Positions 7,062 to 34,740 of a stretch of 34,740 nt of DNA are shown here, in pieces. How positions within the stretch are numbered: position 1 is the stretch's first letter; each line of letters starts with the position of its first letter. Both the position numbers and the translations under genes were made by a program. Source of the DNA: Candidatus Peribacteria bacterium. GTDB taxonomy: Bacteria > Patescibacteriota > Gracilibacteria > Absconditabacterales > Absconditicoccaceae. Below the pieces are notes generated by a model. The model was given only the letters and a program-made list of their open reading frames with translations, searched no databases and was not told the origin of the DNA. The stretch lies in contig JAISMG010000019.1 of the NCBI GenBank assembly GCA_031276875.1, positions 1 through 34,740 of the forward strand, in the 5' to 3' direction.

Positions 7062-8720
7062 ATGCAACTACCTCTTTCTCATCTTCCCAATGACCCGTGA
7101 GTCTACCTATTTAAAGACACCAAAGGCACCATTCTCTACATTGGAAAAGCAAAAAACCTCCAAAAAAGAGTAGCTCAATACTTTGCACCGGGTTCACTCC
7201 GAAAACAAGAAATGCTCCAAAAAGCAGCAAGTGTCGATTTTCTCGTTGTGAAAAATGAGAGTGAGTCGCTTTATTTGGAAAATAATCTCATCAAAAAACA
7301 CAAACCCTTTTACAATACTATGCTCAAAGGAGGAAACGGCTATACCTATATCAAATTTACTCCTCACGAGTTCCCACAAGTGCTATTAACGAGAATGAAA
7401 AAAGACGATAAAGCCACCTACATTGGTCCCAAACACAATACTCGCGAACTCAGAAAATTATTGCAATATCTCAGACAACTTTTGCAGTATAGAACTTGTC
7501 CTCTGACACAATTTCGCCAGCACAAACTTTGTTCAGATTATTATTTTCATTTGTGTAAAGGACGATGTGCAGGTTGTCCTCTGACTACTGGGGAACCGCG
7601 TTATTCTTCAGCACTAGAAGCAAAAGCTGATTACAAACAGTTGCTTCAGCTTCTTAGTTCTTTTTTTAAAGGAAATACCAAACCCATAGAAAAAGAACTG
7701 CTCCACCAAATCCAGCAAGCAGCAGAACGTCAGCATTTTGAACGGGCTGCAACGCTGAGAGATATGTATCACCACATTGAACAACTGGTCGAAAAACAGC
7801 ACGTAGAACTGCCTCAAAAGATTTCTGGCTATGTGTTGGGTATCAGGACGATAGGTGAATGGAATGTGTATGTGCTCTTGCATTTTTATGAAGGGAAATT
7901 GATAGACGTTATCCGTGATAAAGTTGCACTTGCTCAGGGAGACAAGTATCGGATGTTGGCGGGATTTGAAGCGGATTTGGGAGATATGCACCTTGCCTCA
8001 TCATCGCCAAATCTGTTGGCGTGGTCAAAAGAATTGACGCTACTCGTTTCACAGCAGCAAGCTTTGGAAGAAATGTTGCAAAATTTTTTCGATACATATA
8101 TGATTGTGGCGTCGTTTGAGGGGGAAGTATTTCACAATGACTTGCTTTCAATGCTTCAGCAGAGATATGGACTGCAACATTTCCCGTATCGTATCGAATG
8201 CGTGGATATTTCACATTTATCGGGAGGGCGAATAAGTGGCGGAATAAGCTGTATGCTAGGAGGCATACTAGAAAAAAAAGGCTATCGTAAATACAAAATC
8301 CGTTCCGTTCGTGGAGAAAGTGATGATTATGCGTCATTGAAAGAGGTAATAAGCAGGAGATTAAAATCCTGAGAAGAATATCCCAATCTCTTTATCCTAG
8401 ATGGAGGAAAAGGACAATTGGGAGTGGTAAAAGCATTGTATGAAGCAGATGAAACTTTTAGGCAGATTTTTTCAAGCATTGATTTTGTAGCTTTGGGGAA
8501 AGGAGAAGCCAGAAAAAAAGCTGCTATTGGTTCACGTTCTGTGCGTTCTTCTTCGGAAGTGGTAGGAGAAAAGGTGTATCGCTTCGATGAGCAGTGGAAT
8601 GTCATTGAAACTCCTCTTGTTTATGACCAAGCGGACAGATTTTTGGTGAAATTACGTGATGAAGCTCACAGATTTTCTAATGTCTACAGAAAGCAACAGA
8701 TGAAAAAAGAGATAAAGTAA
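7062..8720 (+). CDS. uvrC: Excinuclease ABC subunit C, lacking the C-terminal HhH domain
   Basis: 552 residues; TGA glycines in DPGVYLF and in LKSGEEYP. UvrC makes both incisions around a lesion marked by UvrAB. Visible: GIY-YIG nuclease from about residue 11 (VYLFKD..ILYIGKA); a Cys cluster CPL..CSDYYFHLCKGRCAGC; the UvrB-interacting UVR motif around residues 205-240 (AAERQHFERAATLRD); and the RNase H-like nuclease with CVDISHLSG (Asp about 381), LFILDGGKGQL (Asp about 446) and DEAHRF (His about 535). The protein stops 17 residues after DEAHRF, so the tandem helix-hairpin-helix domain found in E. coli UvrC (610 residues) is missing. The stop is a clean TAA. No Shine-Dalgarno is evident. Confidence 0.95.
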
Positions 8721-25208: not shown

Positions 25209-25521
25209 AGATTTTGGTAGAAATAGTAAAAGTTTTTTACTAGTGTTATGTTTTGGAGAAATATTTCAAGAGAATTTCCTTGCAATTCTTGTGTAAATAG
25301 TTAAAGTGGAGGCCGTGTGGTACCCTATATAGTTGGTTTAGCATATCTGTGCAATTTCAAACGTGACTTTATTTTCTTCTGATTTATCAAAAATTTTTTA
25401 TCAAGTATGTTTTATTTCTCAGCAACTATGATGAGGTAGTAGATAAATATTTTGTATATGTCTTTTGGAGGCAGGGCACAATGAAAATGAAGTAGTACGT
25501 TTTATATTTTATGCTTATACG
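25209..25521. other. Intergenic region with a possible minileader
   Basis: 313 AT-rich bases between the divergent DJ-1 and collar-protein genes. The only notable signal is a strong Shine-Dalgarno GGAGG at 25467-25471, placed nine bases before ATG-AAA-ATG-AAG-TAG (25481-25495). This is a five-codon reading frame unusual in a genome where ribosome-binding sites are otherwise weak. No convincing promoter or hairpin is seen. Confidence 0.25.
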
Positions 25522-26298
25522 ATGAAACAACAATTTTGACATTTGACGCATTGGTGTGCAAAAATCTGGGTCTCTTTGGTAATAGTTATGGGAATAGGAA
25601 TAATCGGTGGTATCTGTATCACAGCAGCGTGGAGTAGTAATGTTTCCTCTCTAAAAAATCTCAAATCTGGAAACAATAACAATACATTGACTGCGGCAAA
25701 TTGGGACTTATTGATAGACTATCTTTCGGGAATGGATACAGAAGTACAAAAAACCTTACAGCTTCTCAATCAAAAAGTTTCTGAACTGAGTGGTAATCTG
25801 GTAGGGGTGACGAATAATTTTGCTAGCCTTACCAATTCGCTTACGACACTTACCAATACGGTTAATGTTGTGTCTGAAAAAAGTGTTCCAGCAGGAGCGG
25901 TGATGGCATTTGACCTTTCAGCTTGTCCGACTGGATGGACGAGATTTTCTGCGGCAGATAATAGATTTATTATGGGAGCAAGTAGTAATTTTAAAACAAC
26001 AGGTGGAAGTTCTTACATTTATCTTTCTGCTAATCAATTACCGTCTCATTCCCATTATCTATTTTATAGGGGGGAATTTAGAGGGAAAGGCGGTCGTCGA
26101 ATGACTAATGGTGCACATGCTAATGATACCGTTTATAGTAAAAATAAAGGTACCGACGGAGATAACAATCATCGATATGATACAGTAGGGATACAAAATC
26201 AAACAGCTAATGCAGGTAAATCAAGTAGTGTTGGTAATGGAGCAAGTATCAATATTCAAAATCCTTATATCAAACTCATTTATTGTAAAAAAAACTAG
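25522..26298 (+). CDS. Membrane-anchored protein with phage tail-collar-like domain
   Basis: 258 residues, one TGA glycine near the start (QQFGHLTHW). A signal-anchor helix (IWVSLVIVMGIGIIGGICIT) precedes NWDLLIDYLSGM. Next is a short coiled coil of heptad-like repeats (about residues 75-120, with LTNSLTTLTNTVNV). A collar-type domain follows: PAGAVMAFDLSACPTGWTRF, RFIMGASS, LPSHSHY and the C-terminal NPYIKLIYCKK. In phages such domains sit in tail-fibre tips; in CPR, anchored versions are likely surface-exposed adhesins or pseudopilin-like proteins (inference). A terminator follows directly. Confidence 0.7.
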
Positions 26299-26395: not shown

Positions 26396-26929
26396 ATGTC
26401 AAACGAACTTCTTGCTCCTCCGTTGGGGAGTATTCCAGACCACGGTCACCTTAAGCCTGAAGAAATCTCTCGAGATGAGTATTTTATGGATATTTGTAGA
26501 GTATTGGGAGAAAAAGCTACCTGTGATAGGGGGAAAAGCGGTTGTGTGATTACCAAAAATAATGTGATTATAGCGACAGCTTTTGTGGATGCTCCTTACG
26601 GTTCTCCAACGTGTGATGAAGTGGGACATCAAATGACTACCTTTATTCACGAGGATGGACATCATACTGAGCATTGTATGAGAAATGTGTGTGCAGAACA
26701 GGGAGCTATTGCCAATGCAACCAAAAGTGGCATTTCTCTGGAAGGAGCAACGCTTTATTCAACGATGACGCCGTGTTCAGTGAGACATTGTGCTCATTTG
26801 ATTGTAGCGTGTGGCATTCGTAAGGTAGTTTGTGATAAAAAATATCACGATGCTGCTGAAAGTGAAGCAATTTTTCAGAGAGCGGGAATAGCATTGGTGT
26901 ATTTACACCAAGAAGTAGAGCAATATTAG
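26396..26929 (+). CDS. dCMP/cytidine deaminase-like zinc enzyme
   Basis: 177 residues, no TGA codons; stop TAG. The layout resembles dCMP deaminase: an N-terminal YFMDICRVLGEKATCDRGKSGCVITKNNVIIAT, the substrate/allosteric region APYGSPTCDE..H, then zinc-site motifs and CGIRKVVC. The zinc motif is CAEQGAIANA (Cys99, catalytic Glu101), where dCMP deaminases normally have HAE; the second motif is PCSVRHC (Cys127, Cys132), with four residues between the cysteines instead of two. Cys in the first position is normal in cytidine deaminases. Expected reaction: dCMP to dUMP for thymidylate synthesis. A TATACT -10 box lies about 32 bases upstream. Confidence 0.75.
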   Translation: MSNELLAPPLGSIPDHGHLKPEEISRDEYFMDICRVLGEKATCDRGKSGCVITKNNVIIATAFVDAPYGSPTCDEVGHQMTTFIHEDGHHTEHCMRNVCAEQGAIANATKSGISLEGATLYSTMTPCSVRHCAHLIVACGIRKVVCDKKYHDAAESEAIFQRAGIALVYLHQEVEQY

Positions 26930-27052
26930 TCGATATAAAGTAGGAGTTCCATTTTGTAATATCCGCAGTTTTTCCTGTAGTGTAATTATAATTGCAAAAT
27001 GCACCATTGTAACTTTTACCCTTGAAAATACACAAGAAAAAACTATCTTGTA

Positions 27053-27058
27053 TATAAT
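27053..27058 (+). promoter_or_regulatory. Extended -10 box upstream of the DGR operon
   Basis: TATAAT preceded by TTGTA, 31 bases before the first gene of the retroelement (27090). The -35 region is weak; a TTGAAA lies 25 bases upstream, too far for a standard spacer. Confidence 0.45.
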
Positions 27059-27089: not shown

Positions 27090-27515
27090 ATGAAAACCAA
27101 TTTTGAACATCGATTGGAACTAAAACGCCTAGCAGAAAACAAAGAAAGAATTCTGCTTTTTCATTCGTGAATTTTTTATAAAACCTTTGAATCCGATGCA
27201 GAATTTTTATCTGCTTTATTTGGATTTCAGGTATTGGAAAAATGAGGATATGAAACGGTAGGATTTCCTGTCAATACAGAAGAAAAATATTTGGAACAAC
27301 TTAAACAAGCGTGATACTCCTACCAAATCATCAAAAATATGGAAGGTGAACTAGGATTATTGGATGAATTTGATGGAAGTGAGGTTTTGGTCTATGAAAA
27401 AAACAAAGTAGTTTTTTGGGAAAAGAAAGAAGAGCCACTCCCAAAACCACTATATGATACAAGGTTTCAAGGATTTATCCAAGATTTGGAAAAATTAGTG
27501 CAGAAATATCTCTAA
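27090..27515 (+). CDS. MutS-N-terminus-like DGR accessory protein (MSL type)
   Basis: 141 residues with three TGA glycines (FHSGIF, EKGGYET, KQAGYSY); under the standard code no ORF longer than about 60 codons survives. The body ILLFHSGIFYKTFESDAEFL..LFGFQVLEKGG, then VGFPVNTEEKYLEQL and KQAGYSYQII, follows the plan of MutS domain I (G.FYE.F..DA......G, G.P......YL..L...GY). MutS-like accessory genes are known next to some DGR reverse transcriptases. Its place, first in a cluster with template repeat, avd and RT, supports that role. The rest of MutS is absent. Function in mutagenesis is unproven. Confidence 0.7.
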
Positions 27516-27668
27516 TATATCTCTAATTGGCCAGAATTTCCCATTGCTACGGTATGGTAGAGTGTGCCAATGATAGAGTTCAGTGATTCACTGTCCTGGT
27601 CTCAAGCGGGATAGTAATAAAAGATGTATCTCGTAGAAATGCGGAATACACAAATGAAGTAATCACTT

Positions 27669-27858
27669 GTGCCTTTAGCCGGTAACCGCAATCGTGAGTC
27701 TGGTGTGCTGAACAATCAGGGTAGCAACGCGAACTATTGGGCTTCTACGCCCAATGGCTCTAATGCCTTCAACCTGAACTTCAATTCGTCCATCGTCAAC
27801 CCCCAGAATACGAATAATCGCTCCAACGGCTTCTCCGTCCGCTGTTTTCAGCACTCTG
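27669..27858 (+). repeat. DGR template repeat (TR); boundaries approximate
   Basis: A non-genic stretch that nonetheless reads as protein: PLAGNRNRESGVLNNQG, SNANYWASTPNGSNAFN, LNFNSSIVNPQN and NGFSVRCF. This is the C-terminal lectin-fold (FISUMP/FGE-like) sequence typical of DGR variable regions. About 16 of 62 codons are AAC or AAT, the codons that adenine-specific mutagenesis turns into any residue without making stops. Half of 27721-27780 is G+C against about a third nearby, and all its glycines are GGT/GGC. It lies directly upstream of avd and RT and is preceded in frame by TAA, so it is a template, not a gene. A CAGTGA-T-TCACTG palindrome lies upstream at 27581-27593; nothing else is seen in 27516-27668. 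Confidence 0.85.
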
Positions 27859-27864
27859 TCTCTT

Positions 27865-27913
27865 GTCATGGAGTATGGAGCACATAGATACTATGTTCGC
27901 TCCTTCCTATGAC
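27865..27913 (+). other. Imperfect hairpin at the 3' end of the template repeat
   Basis: GTCATGG..A.GGAGC..ACATAG (27865-27887), loop ATA and CTATGT-TC-GCTCC..CC.ATGAC (27891-27913) form a long stem with small bulges. DGRs need a hairpin/cruciform near the repeat boundary for target recognition (known downstream of the VR in the Bordetella phage system); alternatively this stem folds the TR-containing RNA or limits read-through into avd. Confidence 0.55.
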
Positions 27914-27965
27914 AATAAACATTCATTCCACAGACTATAAATATTTTAGTTCTCTATATCTATCA

Positions 27966-28310
27966 ATGACCACGTATGATAATCTCCCTGTGTATAAGGC
28001 AAGTTATGACCTCTTAATTAAGATTTTTGTGGCAGTTAAAAATTTTAGTAAAGAATACAAATATACCCTAGGGGATGTAATCAAAAAAGAAGCAATAAGT
28101 CTGATTACTAATATTTATAAAGCGAATGGAAAAACAGAGAGAAATAAAAATATCGCTTTAGCCAGAGAAAAAACTGAACTTATCAGATTATACTTTAGAC
28201 TGTGTAAAGATATGAAAGTCATTTCGCTAAATAAATATATAGAAGTGAGTACTGTCCTAGAAGATATCTCTAAACAGCTTACTGCACGGGACAAATCAAC
28301 CAAAGAATAA
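27966..28310 (+). CDS. avd: Accessory variability determinant (Avd-like four-helix protein)
   Basis: 114 residues, no TGA. Four amphipathic helices are apparent: YKASYDLLIKIFVAVKNFSK, then YTLGDVIKKEAISLITNIYK, NKNIALAREKTELIRLYFRL and SLNKYIEVSTVLEDISKQL. This is the Avd / 23S-intervening-sequence four-helix-bundle pattern. Avd forms a barrel-shaped pentamer that binds the DGR reverse transcriptase and the TR-containing RNA, and is needed for mutagenic retrohoming. The ATG at 27966 (MTTYDNLPVYK) matches family starts; an in-frame ATG at 27909 would add 19 residues within the hairpin and is less likely. RT follows after 10 bases. Confidence 0.85.
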   Translation: MTTYDNLPVYKASYDLLIKIFVAVKNFSKEYKYTLGDVIKKEAISLITNIYKANGKTERNKNIALAREKTELIRLYFRLCKDMKVISLNKYIEVSTVLEDISKQLTARDKSTKE

Positions 28311-28320
28311 TCAGCTTTTT

Positions 28321-29535
28321 ATGTTTTATTTTTTTATAATGTCTTTAGTATGCGATATTTTTAAATCTTATTATGACGCTAGAATAAATAAAAGAAATAC
28401 TATTAGTCAGTTGGAGTTTGAATTTGATTTGGAAAGAAACCTTTTACACCTTTACCAAGAACTCCAAAATAATCGTTATGAAATAGGACCAAGTATCTTC
28501 TTTATACAAACGCATCCTGTAAAACGTGAAATTTTTGCAGGAGCCTTTCGTGATAGAATTGTCCATCATCTCATTTACAATTATCTCAACCCTCTCTGCG
28601 AAAAAACCTTCATTTATGATAGTTATAGCTGTAGAGTAGATAAAGGAACTAGTAAAGGAGTACAAAGAATGAGTACATTTATAAGAAGTTGTAGTCAAAA
28701 TTATACTAAAGACTGCTATATTCTCAAATTAGATATTCAAGGATACTTTATGTCCATCCACAAAGATATCCTCTATCATAGCATTCAATCGCTCATAGAC
28801 CAAAAAATATCCCTGCTCAAAATACCAATGACTACAGAATGGTTACTGCAACTAATTCATAAAGTCATCTATCACGATTGCACCCAAAATGGCATTTTTA
28901 AAGGGAAAAAAACAGACTATGAATGATTACCTCTGACTAAAAGTCTTTTTTATAGCAAACCAAATTGTGGACTCCCTATCGGAAATCTTACCAGTCAGCT
29001 TTTTTCAAATATTTATCTCCACGAGTTTGATGTGTATATGAAACATACCCTGAAACTTCCCTATTATGGGCGTTATGTAGATGATTTTGTGATTATCCAT
29101 CACGATAAAGCGTATTTGCAGAGCCTTATCCCACAAATTACTCTCTATTTGCAGTCTCATTTAGCATTAACTTTACATCCTCGCAAAATTTATCTTCAGC
29201 ATTATTCCAAAGGAGTATTATTTCTAGGTACTGTCATCAAACCGTATAGAACATACATCAGAAAAAGAACGTTAGGCTATTTTTACCAGAAAATCCAATT
29301 GCTCAACCAAAGCTTATTGGCGGTAGAACAGGAAACAAATCCTATAATTCAAGCAGAAATACTCAACTGACTCAAGAAAAATTTTGTAGGAGTAATGAAT
29401 GCATATTTGGGTTTTTTGCGTCCTACCAAAAGTTATAAAAAAAGAAAGCAGATGATAGATAAGCACGTCAACCCAAAATTTTGGGAATATGTATCTCTCG
29501 ATGAAGCGTATACCAAAGCAAAACTAAAAAAATAG
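28321..29535 (+). CDS. DGR reverse transcriptase
   Basis: 404 residues, two TGA glycines (DYEGLPLTK, ILNGLKKNF); stop TAG. RT motifs in order: FRDRIVHHLIYNYLNP and YDSYSCRVDKGTSKG (motifs 1-2 region), ILKLDIQGYFMSIHKDIL with the first catalytic Asp, GLPIGNLTSQLFSNIYL (the DGR-type IGxxxSQ motif 4), and YYGRYVDDFVIIHHD with the catalytic YVDD. KGVLFLGTVIKPYRTYI comes next, then the C-terminal helical end ..NAYLGFLRPTKSY. No maturase, endonuclease or RNase H domain is attached, as expected for DGRs. It copies TR RNA with adenine-specific errors. ATG 28339 (MSLVCDIFKSYYDAR) is an equally good start. Confidence 0.93.
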
Positions 29536-29677: not shown

Positions 29678-32600
29678 ATGAACAACGGTATGAAAACATT
29701 TGCTTATGTACTAGTAGCAGGTTTAGTCTCCATAGGAGGAGCTTTTTTGGTAGTTGAAAATACAGAAGAAAGTATCACTCTGCAGGGATGTGTAGAATGA
29801 ACACAAGAAATCTGCGACGCTGAAGAACCAGAGCTAGTAATTCCTACAGAGGAAGAAAAAACGGATTCAGCAATTCCTACAGAGGAAGAAACGGATTCAG
29901 CAATTCCTACAGAGGAAGAAACGGATTCAGCAATTCCTACAGAGGAAGAAACGGATTCAGCAATTCCTACAGAGGAAGAAAAAACGGATTCAGCAATTCC
30001 TACAGAGGAAGAAACGGATTCAGTAATTCCTACAGAAGAGGAAAAAACGGATTCAGCAATTCCTACAGAAGAGGAAAAAACGGATTCAGCAATTCCTACA
30101 GAAGAGGAAAAAACGGATTCAGTAATTCCTACAGAACAAGTGAAAATAGAGCCAGCAACTATTACTCCGTTTTCATTTGGGGCACCCATATCGCGATATT
30201 GGACTACCACCTGAGCAACTGCAGAAAAATGTATGACTATAGGAAGAAGTGAACTTCAGAGAAATATTGTGGTAGAGTGGTGAGATACTGATGTAGAAAC
30301 TTTTACAGGTATTGATGTGTATTCCCTGACAGGTGCACAGACCTATACTAAAGTATGTCATACGTATAGTGCAGCCAAAGAATATGCTGTACGTATTACT
30401 ACTCCAGAGAGAATTACTTATTTGGATTTGAGTTCTCAGAATGTAAATGAATTTGAGGCTGGAACAAATGGTACCAATTTAATATATATATCATTAGATG
30501 ACAATGCGTTAGATTCATTAGCTGGAGGTACATTTCGTGGGCTTACTCAGTTGAGAGAATTGTATCTTTCCAATAATGCTTTTGTATTTCTGCCACAGGA
30601 TATTTTTCAATGATTAACCAATTTACAGATATTGGAACTTTCGTGGAATGGGTTAGTTGTTTTGCCTGATACGATTTTTCAGTGACTGACCAATCTCTTG
30701 GCATTGGACTTGTCGTATAATGCGTTGGGTGCTTCGTCTTTGTCTCCAACGTTGTTTCAAAGTTTATCTAAGTTACAACTTTTATCTTTAGCAGGAAATG
30801 CTTTTAGTACATTACCATCTAATTTGCTGGCAGGACGTACTAATTTGACAGATTTTTATCTCTATGAAAATAATTTGTCGACGATGATTTCTTTGGCAAG
30901 TTTATCAAAGCTTAGCGTAGTATCTCTCTTTGATAATATCTTCAGTGTTTCTGGCTACAATGCATTTCTAGATAGCTTTAAAGCCGTTCCTTCGTCAACT
31001 GGTGCACTTTATGCTGCTCCTGCATCCTATGGAGGATGTATAGCAAATGCTTCTCTAGGGATTTCAGCACACAATACCTTGTCAGGTACCAAATGATGGA
31101 TGGTGCAGGATGCAGGATTAGCTGGATGTACGATTACAGGAACTGTATCATATACTCCTTCAGCAGGTACTTGGACCAATAGTGGGGTAGTTGCTACCCT
31201 GACTCTTACGACTACGGGGACGGTTACTTCTTCAGGCTGGACTCCTACAGGGGAAGGTACTATTTTTACCAAAACATATTTCACTAATGCCAATGAAACA
31301 GTGCTTTTCCAATCTCCATCGGGAGCGACAGGAAGTGTACAGGTAGTGATTAGTACGATTATCAATAGTGGAAGTCTGGGAGCAGTAGTAAACTATGAAC
31401 CTGCTCAGATTGCAAGTGGAACTATTACCGTGAGGGTTACGCTTTCAGCTACAGGAGGAACTGCTCCTGCTCATTGGACACTTTCGGGTACTCAAACCTA
31501 TGTGAGAGTGTATACTGGTAGTGTGATGCAGCAAGAACTTACTTTCTCAGATATTGCGGGAAATACCACAGATGTGCTTATTGATTTGACAATAGATACG
31601 ACAGCACCAGTAGCAACAAATGTATCTTACAATCCAAATACAGCGACCAATAGTCCTGTAGTTGTTACCTTGACGACCAATGAACCCATACAACAACCTA
31701 CTAATTGGAACTGAGCAGCAACAGGAACCGTCTTTACGAGAACCTATACTGGTAATGTGACTGAGACGGTGAACTTCTACGATATAGTGGGTAATGCTGG
31801 AAGTACAGGTATTAGTATTACACGAATAGATAAAGCTGCTGTTACAGGGACTGTACACTATTCTGTAGCGACACCGACCAAACACGATGTATTGGCTACC
31901 GTGACATTTGCCAAGACGTGAGTTGTGGTTACGTCTACAGGAGGAGCAAGTCATTTATTTACAGGAGATGGCAATTGGACATTCTTATTTGTAGATACAG
32001 CAGGAAATACTGGAAGTGCTGTAGCGGTAGTTAGTGGAATAGATAAACTATCGCCGGTAGCGACAAATGTATCTTATTCTCCGAGTACAGCGACCAATAA
32101 TGATGTAGTTGTTACCTTGATGACCAATGAACCCATACAACAACCTACTAATTGGAGCTGAGCAGCAACAGGAACCGTCTTTACGAGAACCTACTCCAAT
32201 AATATCACAGAGACAGTATTCTTTGAGGATTTGGTAGGAAATCAATGATATACAGGAGTGATGATTAGCTGGATAGATACCAATAATCCTACAGCAACGC
32301 TTACGTATAGTCCAGCAACTGCAACCTCTGGCTCAGTAGTAGTAACTCTTCAAGCAAATAAAATATTGAAAGCAACGCCTACTGGATGGACAAGTGCAGG
32401 AAATAATAGCTATACCAAAACCTATACTGGGATTACCACTGAACAGGTACTTCTGACAGATACTGCAAATAATACTGGAACAGTAGAGGTAAATATTCGG
32501 CGAATAGATACGACAGCACCAGTAGCAACAAATGTATCTTATACTCCTGATGCCCAGACTCCTACTAATGGAAGCGTGGAAGTAACATTAACGGTTAGTG

Positions 32601-34012
32601 AGTCAATTCAACCTCCTTTAGGCTGGAGTAAATTAAGTGATACGAGTTATGCCAAAGTCTTTTCTCACAATACTGGACTGACAGTGACCTTCTATGATTT
32701 GGTGGGGAATGAGTGATCGACAGGTATTACTATTGCAAATATTGATAACGATGCATTGACAGGAACTATTACCTATGATGTTTCTCTCCCAACGAGTGGT
32801 ACCGTACAGGCTACATTAACGACCAATAAACCTGTAGTACCCATTACTGGGTGGATAGGGGAGACAGGAACGGTCTTTACCAGAGTATTTACCGCAAATA
32901 CCCATGGAAATGTTGTATTTACAGATGCTGTAGGAAATCTAGGAACAGCTTTATATGCTATTGATTGGATAGATACGACAGCACCACAGGCACAGATAAC
33001 GTATACTCCAAATCAACAAACTACGTGAACTGTACTAGCGACTATTACCTTAAATGAGTCTGGAGTAGTGAAAGGATGGACATCTGTAGATGAGATGACC
33101 TATACCAAATCCTACGCTACCAATACTACAGAAAAAGTAAACTATGCTGATCTTCTGGGTAATAAAAGTATGATAGAGGTGGTTATTTCGTGGATTTCTC
33201 AGCCTTCAAATTGATGAGGTGGAGGTGGAGGATGAGGCAGTGCTCTAGCCAAGGATTATTGTCCAAATGGTGATCATTCAGGAAGTTATTATGATGGAGT
33301 ATGTGGAGTTTCTCCAGCAGAAAAAGAACAAATCGTTGGAGAAGTATTACAAGAGCTTGGACTGCCGGAAACAGCTCTCCCTTCATATGTTTCAGCAGGA
33401 GAAAATGCTGATAGCTCAGCACAGATGAATGTTTATACATGGGCAAAAGTAAATAAACTAACTTCAATGCTGAATGAAGAAGCTTTTAGACCTAATGCTA
33501 TGATGACGCGTGCTGAGATGGCAAAAGTGATTGTTTCCTTCGCACAGCTTATGGATGCTCCTCGTAGTCATTCTGAGGAAGTGAACGGAGTGAACTACGA
33601 AGAATCCAGTCAACAATCCATAGATTCTTCGCTACGCTCAGAATGACAGCTTGACTCAACATGACAGTGTACCGCATTCGTTGACTTAGACCAAGTCAAT
33701 CCTGAACTCCAATCCTTTATCATCAGAGCTTGTCAGCTCGGATTGATGGGACATACCGCTAATGGACAGGAAGTGCAGTTGTCCTTTCATCCTTATCAGG
33801 CGCTAAGCTTAGCAGAAGTGGCTACTATCATTTCTCGTCTGCTTCGAGGGGATATCTATGCAGGTAGTGAAGAATACTGGTATCATAGCCACATTCTTGC
33901 ACTTCAGAAAGCTGGTAGTATTCCAATAGAACTCAATCCTCTCAAAATAGAATCAAGAGAAGAAGTGTATACAATATTACGTAAGGTGCAGTGATACACA
34001 AAAACCAATTAA
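29678..34012 (+). CDS. Giant surface protein: acidic repeats, LRRs, Ig-like modules, poly-Gly, SLH-like C-terminus
   Basis: 1444 residues containing about 18 TGA glycines; stop TAA. A signal peptide (MKTFAYVLVAGLVSIGGAFL) leads to nine acidic IPTEEE(K)TDSA repeats (29840-30124). Leucine-rich repeats follow at about residues 245-445 (LRELYLSNNAFVFLPQDIFQG type). Then come about nine Ig-like modules of near 78 residues (VSYTPxTATxxxVVVTLTTNEPI..GW..YTKTYTxN..E.V.F.DxxGNxG). A nine-glycine linker (33212-33238) precedes CPNGDHSGSYYDGVCG. The C-terminus is SLH-like (FRPNAMMTRAEMAKVIVSFA; TAFVDLDQVNPELQSFI..ACQLGLMG), likely binding the cell wall or S-layer. Inference: a host-contact adhesin. ATG 29690 is an alternative start. 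A REP-like inverted repeat is embedded near the C-terminus. Confidence 0.85.
29840..30136 (+). repeat. Acidic 30/33-bp tandem repeats within the surface protein
   Basis: Nine units of IPTEEE(K)TDS(A/V), in the order of 11,10,10,10,11,10,11,11,11 codons, plus a partial IPTE. Units differ only by an optional AAA codon, GAG/GAA choice and A/V at the end. The near identity suggests recent slippage or recombination and likely length variation between strains. Confidence 0.9.
31610..31747 (+). repeat. Nearly identical Ig-like module segment, copy 1
   Basis: 138 bases closely matching 32057-32194, offset 447 bases (149 codons, two Ig-like modules). Both copies carry the same TGA glycine in NW(N/S)-G-AATGTVFTRTY. 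Indicates duplication of a two-module block. Confidence 0.8.
32057..32194 (+). repeat. Nearly identical Ig-like module segment, copy 2
   Basis: Second copy of the 31610-31747 segment; differences cluster at its two ends, with the central 70 bases or so almost identical. Confidence 0.8.
33567..33647. repeat. REP/BIME-like inverted pair inside the SLH region
   Basis: GTCATTCTGAG (33567-33577) and CGAAGAATC (33598-33606) are answered in reverse by GATTCTTCG (33623-33631) and CTCAGAATGAC (33637-33647), all perfect complements. The motif pair CATTCTGAG..CGAAGAATC is a widely scattered extragenic palindrome type in many bacteria (from memory). Here two opposed copies are translated in frame, giving SHSEEVNGVNYEESSQQS and IDSSLRSEGQLDSTGQ between two SLH-like halves. 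Confidence 0.75.
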
Positions 34013-34054: not shown

Positions 34055-34740
34055 ATGAAAAAATCTTTCTTTATGTTAGGGATACTGTTAGTAGCCCTCC
34101 TCTCTATCTCTTTATTCGCTATCTCTGCGGAAGCCAAAGACCAAAGTGGTAAAAGAACTCCACTCTTATCAGCTACCTGTGATGCATCGACAGTTGGAAA
34201 GCTGAAATACAGCAACGGATGTATGGCATACTGTGATGGTTCTCAGTGGGTATCCAAATATGGATGTAAGGCTCTTACATGAGTTATTGCTCCCTGTACG
34301 AGTAAACCAGCAGCAGCAATTTATAATGGTGATACACAGATAACTACTACATGGAATGGTTCTCAGTGGGTTCCTAGTACTACAGCAGTGTATAGTCTAA
34401 CTACGGGAGCCAATCAATGTACCTTTGAGTGTCAGTCTGGTACGGTATACAATAGTGATGTCCATAAGTGTATATCAGTTCTCCAGTATGATGGTTGTGA
34501 TACTCCAAATATTGTAGTAGGAAATTATATTCTCGCAGCGTGTAATGTAGGAGCGACGACAGCAGGGACAACTGCATCTTCGTATGGGTATCATTTTCAG
34601 CGAGGAAATAACTATGGATTTAATGCACAGCCTGGGAGTACGGTAGTGTCAGGAGCTTTAGAGCAACTTGTAGACGCTACAGGGTACTGACCAAATACTG
34701 CTAGTGGATACTATACGAGTGGTACCTTTATTAGGACCAA
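34055..34740 (+). CDS. Secreted DGR target-like protein, truncated by window end
   Basis: The first 228 residues; two TGA glycines (ALTGVIAP, GYGPNTAS), still open at the edge. A signal peptide (MKKSFFMLGILLVALLSISLFAISAEA) is followed by two Cys-containing short repeats (YSNGCMAYCDGSQWVSKYGC; WNGSQWVPS). Then comes CDTPNIVVGNYILAACNVGATTAG and YGYHFQRGNNYGF, the start of the FISUMP/FGE-like lectin domain found in many DGR variable proteins. The template repeat at 27669-27858 encodes exactly the C-terminal end expected for this domain type (..YW.S.PNG..A..LNF.S..VNP...N.R.NGFSVRC). Its variable repeat should therefore lie within about 500 bases beyond the window. Start chosen for the signal peptide. 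Confidence 0.75.

Follow-up and report, generated by a model that had tools for sequence, protein, structure and literature searches.

The region 27090-29535 of the DNA studied here is, about as certainly as sequence alone allows, a genuine diversity-generating retroelement (DGR), and directly 5′ of its template repeat (TR) lies a strongly covarying structured RNA that constitutes the main new point and is most worth following. In a DGR a template is copied with its A bases randomised, which gives an endless variety of surface proteins. The window, meaning the whole stretch of DNA analysed, is a contig of 34,740 bases (C13) from a 1.23-Mb genome of 38 contigs that is about 68% complete. Under table 25, in which UGA encodes Gly, the plus strand of the region specifies a stand-alone MutS domain I protein (MSL; 27090-27515, 141 aa), the four-helix accessory variability determinant Avd (27966-28310) and a DGR reverse transcriptase (RT; 28321-29535, 404 aa). 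The TR (27670-27860) lies in a non-coding gap, preceded by the structured RNA element (27527-27669) and followed by a strong hairpin (27863-27916), all likewise on the plus strand.

The original prediction had described a DGR in which MSL, TR, Avd and RT formed one plus-strand cluster with the TR upstream of avd, and all four were recovered where it had placed them, in an MSL-TR-Avd-RT order that is also found in three relatives (L061, L100 and L035). The promoter that it expected in front is a predicted one, a single sigma-70-like match at 27029-27058 made from the consensus alone. In the two tests set beforehand to refute the identification, A-biased variable repeats (VRs) were found in the genome and the RT was placed among DGR RTs. 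As judged from the loci compared, the cassette arrangement is a variant common to relatives and the family assignment passes the tests run. What the earlier reading missed was the structured RNA between MSL and the TR, together with the size of the target family.

UGA as a glycine codon

The host uses translation table 25, the Gracilibacteria/SR1-type code, and two DGR proteins had been expected to exist only if UGA is read through. This was borne out with three in-frame UGA codons in MSL and two in the RT, Avd having none. That UGA encodes Gly is supported by the conserved glycines at which these codons fall: at RT residue 202 (UGA) almost every near relative has Gly, those lacking an in-frame UGA among them (DWxGLP), and codon 27 of MSL aligns with the Gly of the MutS GDFYE motif. 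In addition, a 75-nt tRNA with a UCA anticodon (C7:24454-24527), labelled tRNA-SeC by the program on account of that anticodon, resembles the genome's tRNA-Gly in its acceptor stem (GCGG/CCGC). The use of UGA as a sense codon in the DGR follows from the host's code, with no special mechanism needed.

UGA is also read as Gly in the DGR genes of L061 (JAIRSX010000044.1), which is titled Rickettsiales bacterium Ct408_bin57 and whose contig start carries the 3′ end of a 16S rRNA; this contig is probably mis-binned, the MAG assignment being wrong for it. In L100 the TR itself (7771-7955) holds an in-frame UGA, at which A-mutagenesis under table 25 would give Gly, Trp or Cys.

Template repeat, variable repeats and target genes

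The TR was confirmed as rich in AAC and AAT codons in the frame of its target. A BLAST search with the TR against the window alone returned no VR, the VRs sitting on other contigs, and the search of the TR's own genome identified two close copies at contig ends, VR1 at C19:838-1029 (90% identity) and VR2 at C10:359-550 (84%). Counted over TR positions 27684 to 27834, VR1 differs from the TR at 11 of 40 A positions and 3 of 111 non-A positions (Fisher p 2.8e-5) and VR2 at 14 of 40 and 10 of 111 (Fisher p 3.1e-4), such that the genome-wide search for A-biased mismatches proposed as a check gave the expected result with both repeats. Direct comparison of VR1 with VR2 showed no A-bias (p 0.08). 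The same test gave 14/48 A against 2/134 non-A in L061 (p 1.3e-7), 23/50 against 5/145 and 19/50 against 2/145 in L035, and 20/59 against 1/126 in L100. It was used as a TR finder as well, recovering the annotated TR and VR of phage BPP-1 exactly as a positive control. Both VRs share two changes from the TR, at 27836 and 27839, and diverge from it after 27852; TR and VR 3′ ends that differ in this way near the gene ends are as would be expected for IMH and IMH*, the TR end being IMH*-like. When the flanks downstream of the VRs were checked for a hairpin or cruciform, that on C10 folded at -22.7 (z -1.3) and that on C19 had a z of +1.1.

VR1 ends at the stop codon of a complete 338-aa FISUMP-domain gene with a hydrophobic N-terminus, and VR2 likewise lies at the 3′ end of a gene for a FISUMP-domain protein. 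Positions 34622-34740 of the window are identical to C10:1-119 over all 119 bases, which occur on no other contig in the bin. Since the window end and the start of C10 overlap exactly, the plus-strand ORF at 34055-34740, the 5′ part of a target gene inside which the window ends, would run into VR2, and VR2's gene is probably this cut ORF about 5 kb behind the RT, the linkage of C13 to C10 resting on the contig overlap. C32 and C19 appear to join likewise, which would place the VR1 gene on C32/C19.

Elsewhere in the genome there are roughly a dozen more FISUMP-like genes or gene fragments at dispersed sites. In eight of these, 123 of the 128 codons aligned to AAC or AAT of the TR have C or T as their third base, compared to 235 of 375 in the remaining columns (p 1.3e-15), and these codons specify Y, N, D, S, G, R and other residues. 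On the codon evidence this pattern is the trace that A-to-N mutation of AAY codons leaves behind, and the AAY-to-NNY footprint reaches at least ten genes of the genome in all. The eight paralogs were rejected as current copies of the window TR, C37 and C28, the two detected at the DNA level, being only 66-68% identical to it. A search of the bin for a second TR that would serve the C9-type paralogs gave none, and among seven VR-like copies compared none acts as an A-biased template. The fold of the target is assigned from FISUMP family matches only, because its AF2 model had a pLDDT of 45 and gave meaningless Foldseek matches. A 783-aa FISUMP gene with a VR-like codon footprint precedes the genome's full-length mutS by about 137 bases, the two genes sharing a strand (L161:5989-11113, G000:C2).

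The RT, Avd and MSL are intact, the RT keeps its catalytic YVDD, the RNA element is conserved and the VR1 core has 3 non-A changes against 11 of 40 A positions, all of which makes it unlikely that the DGR is decaying, with the TR/VR homology a relic and the A-bias a product of past activity only. Decay would nonetheless accommodate the non-A mismatches, 3 in VR1 and 10 of 111 in VR2, as well as the eight VR-like paralogs that are without a matching TR in the bin; in VR2 these mismatches are mostly transitions, making recent homing into VR2 doubtful.

Genes flanking the cassette

Behind the RT, 29678-34012 (plus strand) encodes a large surface-type protein with LRR and Ig-like repeats (LRR_8 3e-37), a neighbour of the DGR without a shown role in it. 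The protein has 59% identity over 571 aa to a gene of L061 that likewise follows the RT, with the target of L061 lying before MSL. A tandem repeat of IPTEEEKTDSA units occupies 29835-30135 within the window protein, its L061 homologue having a different repeat, DQNIDQNV, in the same place. On the other side a ComEB-like dCMP/cytidine deaminase gene (26396-26929; PF00383 8.6e-18) adjoins the DGR, and directly upstream of this lies a gene with a phage tail-fibre/collar-like C-terminus (25465-26298; phrog_5717 7.6e-9, with a weak Gp10_C match). The deaminase was rejected as a part of the DGR, adjacency being the sole argument for it. Relative to the TR, C-to-T and G-to-A changes are in excess in VR2, without a shown link to the neighbouring deaminase.

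A structured RNA directly 5′ of the template repeat

The RNA element consists of the stem-loop P1 and, downstream of it, the long-range helix P4, within which lie the hairpins P2 and P3. P4 pairs about 27582-27588 with 27661-27667, its 3′ strand ending a few bases from the TR, and the window sequence folded singly gives the same shape. Alignment of 11 loci with MAFFT and RNAalifold gave 38 pairs, 32 of them with compensatory double changes. In this alignment 91.7% of cells pair compared to 65.3% in shuffles, with 111 double-change cells against 33.6 +/- 5.0 in shuffled alignments (0 of 500 as good) and 18-34 for slid structures. A covariance model, R1, scored 114.9 bits on the window element and located the element just 5′ of the TR in 23 loci at E <1e-4, 12 of these outside the seed; in a 25-row alignment, which leans to the model, 91.9% of pairing is kept. 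Across 288 genomes of the class there were 21 matches in 19 genomes, 20 of the 21 on contigs with a DGR RT match. The exception, a copy of 90.7 bits at G219:C123:18015-18161 (L148), has no RT in the 11 kb examined and may represent an orphan TR unit that depends on the RT on C84 acting in trans.

The order of the protein genes varies across the relatives. In addition to the MSL-TR-Avd-RT cassettes of the window, L061, L100 and L035, the orders MSL-Avd-TR-RT (L110), Avd-TR-RT (L099, L101, L105 and others) and TR-RT-Avd (L032, L033, L034, L102, L108 and L109) were identified, along with MSL-TR-RT-Avd in L114. The L114 RT (G163:C22) has lost the YVDD region to an internal deletion while MSL, the RNA element, TR, VR and Avd remain, which reflects either a decayed RT or an assembly join. 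Cassette order changes fast, since L099 and L100 have near-identical RTs in a different order, with MSL in L100 only. The element precedes the TR in MSL-TR-Avd-RT, Avd-TR-RT, TR-RT-Avd and MSL-Avd-TR-RT cassettes alike, and was rejected as specific to MSL cassettes as those lacking MSL carry it too. In about 23 related loci it stays beside the TR while avd, MSL and RT change places, and because its place is kept while the protein genes move, the element is a direct candidate for the RNA that binds RT-Avd.

Rfam RT-7 (RF03028) matches the window element over its full length and with the same topology at 44 bits (E 1.7e-9), short of the RT-7 gathering score of 116.8, and the element of L062 scores 65.5 bits. 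The class members tested, five loci and L061, had no Rfam match for the element. The window element appears to be a divergent relative of RT-7, outside its filed members. A search of 27380-28010 in the window for the BPP-1-like 3′ RNA (Phage_DGR, RF03022) gave no match. On the 3′ side of the TR, the hairpin at 27863-27916 lacks a T run and folds at -24.2 kcal/mol (z -5.1), a value that none of 200 shuffled sequences matched, and half of the loci (13 of 26) have a terminator-like hairpin and T run behind the TR (p ≤0.05 against shuffles). The 3′ flank is therefore partly structured too and may have a role of its own.

It could be argued that the cassette is a DGR in which the RNA at 27527-27669 acts as a regulatory leader, an attenuator or riboswitch standing outside the template RNA, given its 5′ untranslated position before avd and RT, its riboswitch-like hairpins and the terminator-like hairpins that follow half of the TRs. 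This is improbable, as the element lies directly before the TR whichever gene comes next, avd, RT or some other, and keeps that place when avd or MSL is upstream. Its P4 helix moreover has a 3′ strand that stops only a few bases short of the TR, and RT-15 also abuts the TR in three phages.

Reverse transcriptase and Avd

The RT, which contains the IGNLTSQ and YVDD motifs, matches RVT_1 (3.6e-11) and PHROG 1423 (RT; 4e-92). Its best PDB sequence match is 8ub7, 'Reverse transcriptase' (E 1.8e-29), which we take to be the DGR RT of the Bordetella phage BPP-1, with a group II maturase at 3.8e-7. A tree of 43 RTs was built from class relatives, genomes labelled otherwise, phage and plasmid DGRs and two group II maturases. 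In this tree the window RT pairs with that of L061 (100/99) inside a nine-member clade (99/96), the deep order being unsure owing to long branches, and placement of the RT in a tree, as had been advised, put it with DGR RTs and apart from the group II maturases, which split off at 100/100. A group II intron or retron RT beside repeats that merely reflect gene-family similarity is refuted by the tree and the A-bias of the VRs together, a match to TIGR04416 (106 bits, E 2.2e-30, below its cut-off of 300) being outweighed also by the 8ub7 match, by the Avd and TR beside the RT and by an Rfam search that found no group II RNA.

Such an RT was present in 34 of 288 genomes of the class and in none of seven other genomes searched from the same genus. 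The window's genome also encodes a second, retron-St85-like RT (G000:C22:45207-46704, L163:1208-2704; NF038233 9.6e-36, under the cut-off of 235), just before which lies an unknown ORF of 392 aa.

The Avd-like four-helix gene held up, with matches to bAvd (5e-13), the PHROG 'Avd protein of DGR' (phrog_3206, 7e-20) and NF033474 (1.5e-13, under that model's cut-off). The avd ORF opens at 27909, with relatives starting at MATYDNLPVYK, equal to 27966.

MSL, a stand-alone MutS domain I

The resemblance of the first gene to the N-terminus of MutS was substantiated by a match to MutS_I (PF01624, E 8.6e-11) and by a predicted MutS domain I fold, the AF2 model (pLDDT 76) giving Foldseek matches to MutS at a probability of 1.00 (E 1.4e-4); MSL was also aligned with the full-length MutS of this genome. 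In structures of MutS the FYE triplet stacks on and contacts the mismatch. MSL is present in six loci, and FYE is replaced by FYK (window) or FYR in five of the proteins and by FVR in the sixth, L110, so that the Phe is kept and the Glu is not. The patchy distribution of MSL on the RT tree led to its rejection as a clade marker, and a role as a substitute for a missing MutS was ruled out by the genome's own full-length MutS of 879 aa with GDFYE intact. A passage of PMC10053308, citing a 2018 DGR survey, already names MSL as a DGR accessory and ties it to PF01624; the MSL-bearing DGRs described there likewise have a small MutS domain I protein in the cassette. As MSL may read mismatches but lacks an ATPase and lies beside a machine that makes heteroduplex, shielding of the mismatch-rich heteroduplex from MutS is suggested, although this is a guess that is rather more doubtful than not.

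Proposed mechanism and significance

The region very probably represents the DGR of a table-25 bacterium, comprising MSL, a folded RNA, TR, avd and RT, in which the TR is copied with misincorporation at A into the ends of FISUMP genes. This best explanation draws directly on the parts themselves, the A-bias, the affiliation of the RT, the structure of the RNA and its constant place beside the TR. A single transcript would carry MSL, the folded RNA element, TR, avd and RT, with an RT-Avd complex copying the TR into cDNA and misincorporating opposite A. The cDNA would then replace the 3′ ends of genes for FISUMP-domain proteins whose N-terminus is signal-peptide-like, VR1 on C32/C19 being one such site and the gene cut at the window end probably being the VR2 target, and conversion of AAY codons to NNY would cause exposed residues to vary. 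The 5′ RNA may be a scaffold to which RT-Avd binds and/or a marker of where the template begins, taking over from the 5′ side some or all of the work of the BPP-1 3′ spacer. More speculatively, MSL could bind the mismatch-rich cDNA/VR heteroduplex and so keep host MutS away.

A tentative extension, somewhat less likely than not, is that many DGRs not of the BPP-1 type have an RT-7/RT-15-type scaffold 5′ of the template, with a P4-like helix ending at the TR border and a short 3′ hairpin or terminator. Scaffold and TR would form a single module able to move as one, with avd, MSL and RT reshuffled around it, the cDNA would be primed and bounded in a manner unlike BPP-1, and MSL would be a MutS-derived mismatch-reading domain protecting the heteroduplex. 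The 5′ RNA in a large set of cellular DGRs is a direct candidate for an RT-Avd-binding and template-boundary RNA, giving the Rfam families RT-7 and RT-15 a functional reading. Together, the element, TR, Avd and RT provide a parts list from which a DGR tool unlike BPP-1 could be built. The genome in addition shows the extent of diversification in a reduced bacterium of the host-dependent type.

Comparison with known systems

A clade of cellular DGRs restricted to Patescibacteria/CPR (clade 2) has been described (Roux et al., 2021; PMC8144416), which the window DGR resembles in host group; the main text of that paper leaves the genetic code, MutS and Avd unmentioned (Roux et al., 2021).

The window DGR shares with that of the Bordetella phage BPP-1 (mtd-avd-TR-brt) the RT, Avd and TR, an A-biased VR at the 3′ end of the target gene, and TR and VR 3′ ends that differ. 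Knowledge of the DGR mechanism rests largely on BPP-1, where the RNA scaffold lies 3′ of the template. In BPP-1 the avd stop abuts the TR, leaving no intergenic room for a 5′ element, the R1 covariance model finds no match, and the Rfam Phage_DGR RNA lies 3′ of the TR (2813-2945, 104.7 bits). In contrast, the window has the TR before avd, an RT-7-like RNA 5′ of the TR, MSL and code 25. Like the window element, Rfam RT-15 (RF03018) abuts the TR from the 5′ side in the phages Magia, QDWS and Haboob. With RT-15 5′ of the TR in these three phages and Phage_DGR 3′ of it in BPP-1, the side of the TR that holds the structured RNA therefore differs between DGR types.
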